Below, piece after piece: positions 25,564-27,580 of a stretch of 64,000 nt of DNA (positions are counted from its first letter, which is position 1; the number at the start of each line of letters is the position of its first letter). Source of the DNA: an uncultured Mucispirillum sp. (GTDB lineage: Bacteria; Chrysiogenota; Deferribacteres; Deferribacterales; Mucispirillaceae); NCBI GenBank assembly GCA_944324465.1, contig CALUWI010000004.1, positions 1-64,000 of the forward strand. The letters are read 5' to 3'. A program made the position numbers and the translations under genes. The notes under the pieces were generated by a model, which searched no databases, was not told where the DNA came from, and saw nothing but the letters and a program-made list of their open reading frames with translations.

Positions 25564-25592
25564 TTGCTATTGCATAAAAAATATGGTAGAAA
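25564..25592 (+). promoter_or_regulatory. candidate promoter for the rimP leader
   Basis: TTGCTA (25564-25569) and TAGAAA (25587-25592) are 17 nt apart. A start near 25599 would place the whole hairpin series 25598-25778 inside the transcript. The -10 box is only a 4/6 match. Confidence 0.4.
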
Positions 25593-25597
25593 AAGCA

Positions 25598-25778
25598 AAA
25601 GTTATCTAATCATTAACTTTATAAGGTGTATGCCTTATTTCCGCTCATAAATAGTAAATTATTTATGATGCTAGTAATATCTTGCTCATGCAGGATATTT
25701 CTTGTTGTAATTATTCTTATAATATCTATATCATATTATAAGATGTAGTTAGGCGGGTTGTTCCCGCCTATTTTTTTG
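25598..25778 (+). ncRNA. multi-hairpin leader RNA of the rimP-nusA-infB operon
   Basis: Six consecutive stems can be drawn with little unpaired sequence: 25598-25604/25614-25620; ATAAGG/CCTTAT at 25621-25638; a bulged 11-bp stem 25643-25671; a 10-bp stem 25676-25685/25690-25699 with a TCAT tetraloop and one G-T wobble; an 11-bp AT stem 25715-25725/25733-25743; and the terminator. I do not recognise a known riboswitch, T-box, 6S or SRP motif. The final terminator is only 4 nt from the rimP Shine-Dalgarno, so this is more likely a regulatory leader than a separate small RNA gene. AT-rich DNA forms hairpins by chance; the 10-bp tetraloop stem and the terminator are the firm parts. Confidence 0.55.
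25750..25777 (+). terminator. terminator or attenuator immediately before rimP
   Basis: TAGGCGGG (25750-25757) pairs with CCCGCCTA (25763-25770), followed by T7. The rimP ribosome-binding site AAGGAG begins at 25782. There is no room for a promoter between, so rimP transcripts from upstream must read through it. A short competing pairing of 25641-25645 with 25752-25756 (two wobbles included in its extension) is possible but weak. Confidence 0.85.
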
Positions 25779-25793
25779 TTTAAGGAGTATAAA

Positions 25794-26264
25794 TTGCGTT
25801 TAACAATACCAAAAGAATTTACAGAATATGCAGAAAAAACTGCTGGTAAATATAACTGTAAAGTGCTTGATATTACATTAAAACCTGAAAAAAAATCTCA
25901 CACTTTGCGTGTAACTATTGATGGAGATGATACTTCCTTAAATGTATGTGCAGATATAAGCAGGGAGCTTTCTAAATGGCTTGACAGTCATGAAAATGAA
26001 ATTAAATGTTCATCATACAATTTTGAAGTGTCAAGCCCAGGTCCAGACAGGAAGCTGCGCACAGAGCAGGATTTTATAAACTGTATTAATAAAACAGTTT
26101 ATTTTGAAACGAAAACAAAAGCCGCAGACGGGCGTAAAAGATATAAAGGTAAAGTAATGTCATGTGAAAATGGCATTGTCCATATCTACACAAAAGAAGA
26201 AAGTGCAGAATTTGATATTGTTATTTCAGACATTGCAAAAGCCCGCATTGAATATGAATTTTAG
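25794..26264 (+). CDS. rimP: ribosome maturation factor RimP
   Basis: A 156-residue RimP, needed for 30S subunit maturation. It shows the usual two-domain layout: an N-terminal alpha/beta domain with LRVTIDGDD and DISRELSKWLD, then the signature YNFEVSSPGPDRKLRTEQDF and a C-terminal SH3-like barrel. The start is the TTG at 25794, with AAGGAG (25782-25787) at 6-nt spacing. The frame also opens upstream at 25758, but that TTG lies in the terminator loop and has no ribosome-binding site. The rare start codon and the terminator just upstream both suggest low, controlled expression. nusA follows after 8 nt. Confidence 0.93.
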   Translation: MRLTIPKEFTEYAEKTAGKYNCKVLDITLKPEKKSHTLRVTIDGDDTSLNVCADISRELSKWLDSHENEIKCSSYNFEVSSPGPDRKLRTEQDFINCINKTVYFETKTKAADGRKRYKGKVMSCENGIVHIYTKEESAEFDIVISDIAKARIEYEF

Positions 26265-26272
26265 GAGGAATA

Positions 26273-27580
26273 ATGAGCAGCAGTAAAGAAATCATAAAAA
26301 CTGTGGAAGATTTAGGCAGAGAAAAAGGTATATCCAGAGAAATATTAGCAGATGCTCTCCATGAAGCGATTGTAGCAGCTACAGTTAAGCGAATTGGTAA
26401 ATATTTAGAGCCAGAAGTTACTGTTGATTTAGATAAAGGCCTTATAAATATATTAATACCAAAAGAAGTATCAGAATCAAAAGAAAGCAATTGGTATGAA
26501 ATAACTATGGAAGAAGCAAAAGAGTATAAAGAAAACCCAGAGTATGGTGATATATTAATGGTGCCAACTACTCTTGATGCTTTAGGCAGACAGGCAGCTC
26601 TTGTTGCTAAACAAAAACTTATTGAAAAATTAAAAGAAGCTGAAAAACAAGTTATTTTAGATGATTTTCAAAGCAAACTTGGTGAAATAGTAAACGGTAC
26701 TATTTTAAAAACTGATAGAGATAATATTATTATCAATATTGGTAAAACTGAAGCTATTCTTCCTAAAAAAGAAATGATACCAGGTGAATTTTTTAATAGA
26801 AATGACTATGTGCGTGCATTACTTTTAGATATTAAACTTGTGAAAGGCTGGCCCCAGTTAGTTTTATCTCGTTCGCATCCTAATTTTCTTAAAAAATTAT
26901 TTGAAGCAGAAATTCCTGAAGTATTTGAAGGCATTATTGAAGTTAAAGGTGCTGCAAGAGAACCAGGCGACAGGGCAAAAGTAGCAGTATATTCTAAAAA
27001 CTCTAATATTGACCCAGTAGGTGCATGTATTGGTGTTAAAGGTGCAAGAATATCAACTATTTCTGATGAACTTAAAAAAGAAAAAATTGATGTTGTTGAA
27101 TGGTCTCCAGACCCTGTTAAATATGTATGTAATGCAATCAGTCCTGCTAATGTTTTATTAACAAATATTATTGAAGATGATAAAACTATAGAAATAGTTG
27201 TTCCAGATGACCAGCTTTCTTTAGCTATTGGTAAAAAAGGTCAAAATGTTCGTCTTGCAGCTATTTTAACTGAATGGCGTTTAGATGTTTTAAAAGAAAG
27301 CGAATATGCAGAAATTAGAACAAGCCGTTTAGAAGAACAGGAACAGGAATTAAAAGTTTTCTATGAACTTTATAACTTAGAAAATTTAGAAGTTTTAGAC
27401 CATACTATGATTTCTAAATTAATGGAACATGGAATAGATGATATAGAAAAACTTTCCAGTGCAAGTGTTGATGAAATAGTATCTTATTTAGAAATATCTG
27501 AAGAAGAAGCTGTTGGTATAATTAATGCTGCAATAGATTACTTAACTGCAAAACTTGATGAGCTTGATGACGAAGAATAG
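26273..27580 (+). CDS. nusA: transcription termination/antitermination factor NusA
   Basis: A 435-residue NusA. The N-terminal RNA-polymerase-binding domain (about 1-130) is followed by S1 (about 135-200, with GEIVNGTILKTDRDNIIINIGK), KH1 and KH2 (about 205-350, with GVKGARISTISDELKKEKID and LAIGKKGQNVRLAA). The last 70 residues form a helix-hairpin-helix repeat as in other long NusA proteins; there is one such repeat, not the two of E. coli. AGGAGG lies upstream of the ATG. NusA modulates pausing and termination, so it could act on the terminator in its own leader. The operon order rimP-nusA-ylxR-infB is conserved. Confidence 0.97.
   Translation: MSSSKEIIKTVEDLGREKGISREILADALHEAIVAATVKRIGKYLEPEVTVDLDKGLINILIPKEVSESKESNWYEITMEEAKEYKENPEYGDILMVPTTLDALGRQAALVAKQKLIEKLKEAEKQVILDDFQSKLGEIVNGTILKTDRDNIIINIGKTEAILPKKEMIPGEFFNRNDYVRALLLDIKLVKGWPQLVLSRSHPNFLKKLFEAEIPEVFEGIIEVKGAAREPGDRAKVAVYSKNSNIDPVGACIGVKGARISTISDELKKEKIDVVEWSPDPVKYVCNAISPANVLLTNIIEDDKTIEIVVPDDQLSLAIGKKGQNVRLAAILTEWRLDVLKESEYAEIRTSRLEEQEQELKVFYELYNLENLEVLDHTMISKLMEHGIDDIEKLSSASVDEIVSYLEISEEEAVGIINAAIDYLTAKLDELDDEE

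Follow-up and report, generated by a model that had tools for sequence, protein, structure and literature searches.

The hairpin-rich leader of the Mucispirillum rimP-nusA-infB operon, a probable NusA-driven attenuator, and its promoter-terminator counterparts across Deferribacterota

Autoregulation by NusA, a protein that promotes the termination of transcription, is known from E. coli and Firmicutes. Among predicted attenuators, the rimP-leader is the most widespread, and NusA is the best candidate for its regulator (Naville & Gautheret 2010, PMC2965389). It is described as a terminator with a conserved GGGc...gCCC stem followed by a U-tract, with no visible antiterminator, and no larger conserved elements were reported for its common form (PMC2965389). 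Because the c...g pair is printed there in lower case, i.e. as less conserved, we did not treat this closing pair as essential. In B. subtilis, NusA stimulates termination in the nusA leader, according to the passage of PMC12288461 that cites Mondal 2016, and RNA-seq of the S. agalactiae rimP operon places termination at +31 (PMC4448216).

The window, a stretch of 64,000 nucleotides from an uncultured Mucispirillum sp., carries a structured leader directly upstream of the same operon. Its features, in window coordinates, are as follows.

25564..25592, plus strand: promoter, with the -35 box TTGCTA at 25564-25569, a spacer of 17 and the -10 box TAGAAA at 25587-25592, extended (TGn)
near 25598, plus strand: transcription start, predicted from the promoter
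25598..25620, plus strand: hairpin P1, from the minimum free energy (MFE) fold; one pair in which relatives differ at both positions; 92.7% of cells paired
25621..25638, plus strand: hairpin P2, in the MFE fold here and in most relatives folded singly; 71.7% of cells paired (weak)
25639..25646, plus strand: conserved single strand UUCCGCUC, overlapping part of the P3 foot; possible antiterminator strand against GGCGGG
25643..25671, plus strand: hairpin P3; 100% of cells paired in eight leaders; A-U to G-C in three
25676..25699, plus strand: hairpin P4, 10 bp with a TCAT loop, 8 bp in three relatives; 97.2% of cells paired
25700..25706, plus strand: conserved UCUUGUU, invariant in eight leaders; possible weak antiterminator strand extending P5
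25708..25749, plus strand: hairpin P5, abutting the terminator; 97.6% of cells paired
25750..25777, plus strand: intrinsic terminator, TAGGCGGG-TTGTT-CCCGCCTA followed by T7; stem invariant in eight leaders
25782..25787, plus strand: rimP Shine-Dalgarno sequence AAGGAG, read from the sequence, 4 nt after T7
25794..26264, plus strand: rimP, with a TTG start at 25794 (Pfam RimP_N, DUF150_C)
26273..27580, plus strand: nusA, the presumed regulator (Pfam NusA_N, KH_5)

Six stems (P1-P5 and the terminator) are predicted in the leader fold, the number drawn in the sequence-only reading, and the 10-bp TCAT stem, the 8-bp terminator with its T7 and the 4-nt spacing to the Shine-Dalgarno sequence are all where that reading had put them. 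The MFE of the leader is -62.8 kcal/mol, compared with -35.3 ± 3.8 kcal/mol in dinucleotide shuffles (z = -7.2), and none of 200 shuffles folded as well. The terminator stem comprises 8 bp, six of them G-C, at 25750-25770, and the T7 occupies 25771-25777; the surrounding 700 bp contain three terminator-like sites against 0.2 expected. Downstream of the leader, Pfam matches identify rimP, nusA, ylxR, infB, rbfA and truB in this order. The gene on the 5' side, an M20 peptidase, is divergent, which means that no upstream transcript ends at the terminator. No conserved promoter was found between the terminator and rimP in the window sequence or the eight leaders, and the gap has no room for a second start. 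That the operon is read through from a terminator-ended leader, as proposed from the sequence, is indicated by these data together with the conservation described below.

The terminator is not new in kind and fits the published rimP-leader attenuator. It lies directly upstream of rimP-nusA-infB in all eight Mucispirillum genomes with an assembled locus, and TAGGCGGG and CCCGCCTA provide a G-rich 5' arm and a C-rich 3' arm with GGG...CCC ahead of T7. The distance from the stem end to the TTG codon is 23 nt (19-24 nt in relatives), within the 4-130 nt that separate rimP-leader terminators from the gene. Two differences were noted. The Mucispirillum stem reads GGGTT...TTCCC (GGGu...uCCC), without the closing c...g, whereas GGGC...GCCC is present in relatives such as G010, G011 and G025-G029; in addition, Mucispirillum has five conserved hairpins upstream of the terminator. 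By description rather than sequence alignment, and as far as the cited passage describes it, the B. subtilis nusA leader resembles this one in its intrinsic terminator, its operon and its length of about 180 nt, but the NusA dependence reported there would extend to Mucispirillum only by analogy. In S. agalactiae the hairpin comes right after the start, as predicted for most Deferribacterota, whereas the Mucispirillum start and terminator are separated by about 150 nt. The Rfam family RF01770 (rimP) likewise represents a terminator-ended leader of this operon. None of 51 genomes of the phylum exceeded its gathering cut-off (47 bits), nor did any site in the window, and the weak matches that it gives are scattered over many other places in these genomes. 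A search with 4227 Rfam families at gathering score found no known riboswitch, T-box or ribosomal-protein leader at the leader or at seven loci of relatives, and the only Rfam matches in the window were two tRNAs. The sequence-only reading recognised no known riboswitch class; the terminator, though, is of the rimP-leader type, an attenuator already described.

A DNA search of the family recovered the leader in all eight Mucispirillum genomes in which the locus is assembled, the seven relatives being 76-92% identical to the copy in the window. In two further genomes of the genus the nusA match starts within the gene, where the contig ends, and the leader region is therefore unassembled. Conservation of the stems in close relatives had been named beforehand as a test, and the promoter, stems and terminator are kept in 8/8 leaders. 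The aligned conservation starts just 5' of the -35 box and extends into rimP, and is poor farther upstream. Standard pairs occupy 95.0% of the pair cells in the eight leaders, compared with 38-50% when the partners are slid. Cells changed on both sides number 11, against 4.5 ± 1.5 in shuffles (0/500 as high); the count of five pairs with a double change is unremarkable, being reached by 112 of 500 shuffles. Compensatory changes occur in four of the five upstream stems, including A-U to U-A and A-U to G-C changes in P5 that keep the pairing, and the terminator stem never varies. P3, P4 and P5 are firm and P1 is fair; P2 is weak in the alignment, though it forms in most leaders when each is folded by itself. 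The eight leaders share an invariant block of 25 nt that ends in the P5 5' arm. With the codon positions of rimP as the baseline, the leader is conserved about as well as rimP third codon positions or slightly better, and its terminator reaches 95-100%. The folding z-scores of the eight leaders range from -4.3 to -10.1, and from -2.7 to -6.9 when only the stretch ahead of the terminator is folded. As only eight related sequences are compared, the support for a conserved structure, though good, falls short of overwhelming. Run on the 51 genomes of the phylum, a covariance model built on the leader finds the eight leaders; no further credible copy was found in the source genome or the phylum, the other matches being weak (E of at least 0.003). 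The terminator motif alone is not unique: each Mucispirillum genome has 1-4 such sites, and certain other genera have more.

The sequence ahead of nusA was inspected in 46 genomes of Deferribacterota, as was the leader in an additional Mucispirillum genome. A terminator-like hairpin precedes rimP or nusA in 46/46 genomes, with a strict core G(T/C)GGG...CCC(A/G)C in most of them; the stem is shorter or altered in G005, G032, G033 and G035-G038, two of which (G032 and G033) also have a degenerate U-tract. An extended -10 promoter, TTG-N16..18-TGnTA, stands ahead of the hairpin in 42 of the 46 genomes, compared with 1.7 expected from shuffled sequence. TGnTA and the hairpin are 10-15 nt apart in most genomes, 31 nt in one sister genus, 37-49 nt in a distant family and 151-163 nt in Mucispirillum. 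With standard promoter spacing, most of the phylum would start transcription right at the base of the terminator hairpin. The Mucispirillum promoter, TTGCTA...TGGTAGAAA, nearly matches TTGCTA...TGCTAGAAA of another genus of the phylum (G027-G029), and the roughly 150 nt with P1-P5 between promoter and terminator occur only in Mucispirillum. The simplest account is that the P1-P5 array was gained between the two; the promoter-terminator pair is phylum-wide and probably the old core, and the hairpin array is specific to the genus. Segment 25676-25699 (P4), which the sequence-only reading had singled out for conservation, is indeed kept in the genus but is specific to it, and the part shared across the phylum is the promoter-terminator unit. 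What these genomes add to the known attenuator is the phylum-wide extended -10 promoter directly before the hairpin and the insert restricted to Mucispirillum.

The position of the unit also bears on which gene it serves. In G018-G020 (L025, L031 and L027; one genus), rimP is joined directly to its upstream gene with no promoter or hairpin between them, and the promoter and hairpin stand directly before nusA, between rimP and nusA. A hairpin with a U-tract likewise precedes nusA in G005. The element thus remains with nusA where rimP is uncoupled, in keeping with control by NusA or on its behalf. As a separate observation, short units (CGTCTTGCCGTGGAACAAG and variants) are repeated in tandem ahead of the nusA hairpin in G005 (L074).

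We consider it likely that the leader attenuates transcription of the nusA operon in cis and that NusA drives this attenuation. Polymerase would start near 25598, pass the five hairpins and meet the terminator after about 180 nt, where a fraction would stop, 4 nt before the rimP Shine-Dalgarno sequence. More NusA would give more termination, and NusA would in this way limit its own synthesis along with that of RimP and IF2. The hairpin array of about 150 nt may adjust this termination by way of RNA folding or pausing. We infer by analogy with the described systems that polymerase terminates here, that only part of it does so and that the signal is NusA; a literature search found no transcript-start data for Mucispirillum. 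The rimP-leader and the B. subtilis and S. agalactiae precedents make autogenous attenuation a well-founded hypothesis of a kind already known. The earlier proposal of such a mechanism therefore agrees with what is published for this operon (PMC2965389, the cited passage of PMC12288461, and PMC4448216), and reaches Mucispirillum by analogy. Against the attenuator reading stand the stem without the closing c...g and the degenerate U-tract of G032 and G033.

The insert may have a function of its own. We regard it as doubtful that the roughly 150 nt form a new element that senses a protein or metabolite and antiterminates the nusA terminator, added to an older protein-only attenuator. Somewhat less probable still is an RNA switch in which 25639-25646 or 25700-25706 pairs with GGCGGG and blocks the terminator in response to a signal other than NusA, candidates being a ribosomal protein, RimP, a small molecule or temperature. 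In favour of the switch, structure and constraint are seen in the insert, and the eight leaders keep both strands, which in all eight pair to varying degrees with the terminator 5' arm GGCGGG once the 3' arm is withheld; however, the complementarity is within the range of shuffled leaders (P 0.03-0.6), the terminator state is favoured by 8-11 kcal/mol, and no Rfam class matches. A conserved antiterminator pairing thus does no better than chance, and antitermination is put forward only as a possibility.

Hairpins at the 5' end can stabilise mRNA, and the leader could in principle contain such stabilising hairpins, or a constitutive, unregulated partial terminator, that simply set the expression level of the operon. 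This would agree with the lack of a demonstrated sensor element, but we find it improbable, given that the terminator stem is invariant in the genus, that the element follows nusA where rimP is uncoupled, and that NusA, in the cited passage on B. subtilis, attenuates the same operon. The least probable account makes the 180-nt RNA the product of a trans-acting small RNA gene, with rimP reached by leakage only: its own promoter, several hairpins and intrinsic terminator resemble such a gene, and it has a 25-nt invariant stretch, but throughout the phylum, even where the insert is absent, the promoter-terminator unit accompanies rimP or nusA, no credible copy of the leader was found elsewhere, and Hfq was not found in five genomes of the genus, which lowers this account slightly.

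Other candidate elements were also considered. A leader peptide was rejected, as short frames such as ATG-CTA-GTA-ATA-TCT lack a Shine-Dalgarno sequence and single-base changes in the length of the P4 loop break the frame. A second promoter inside the leader, TTGTAA-18-TATCAT, was set aside as not conserved among the leaders. Comparison by eye with the rRNA leader of the complete relative G041 gave no clear shared motif for a boxA-type Nus site. In the 16S-23S spacer of the same genome (L087, L088), an apparently intact tRNA-Ile is followed by a degenerate second copy whose 3' half is nearly identical, as judged by eye. Apart from its two full rRNA operons, G041 also has a stretch of about 500 bases that matches part of the 16S rRNA (L089, G041:C1:554979-555474; model positions 9-546).

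A rarely studied phylum thus carries a stripped-down attenuator, a promoter followed by a terminator at the predicted 5' end, and in one gut genus a conserved hairpin array is built into the same attenuator. The genome set allows a natural comparison between this attenuator in its bare form and in a form with a structured leader. Those genomes in which the hairpin has moved to nusA point to the gene that the control serves.
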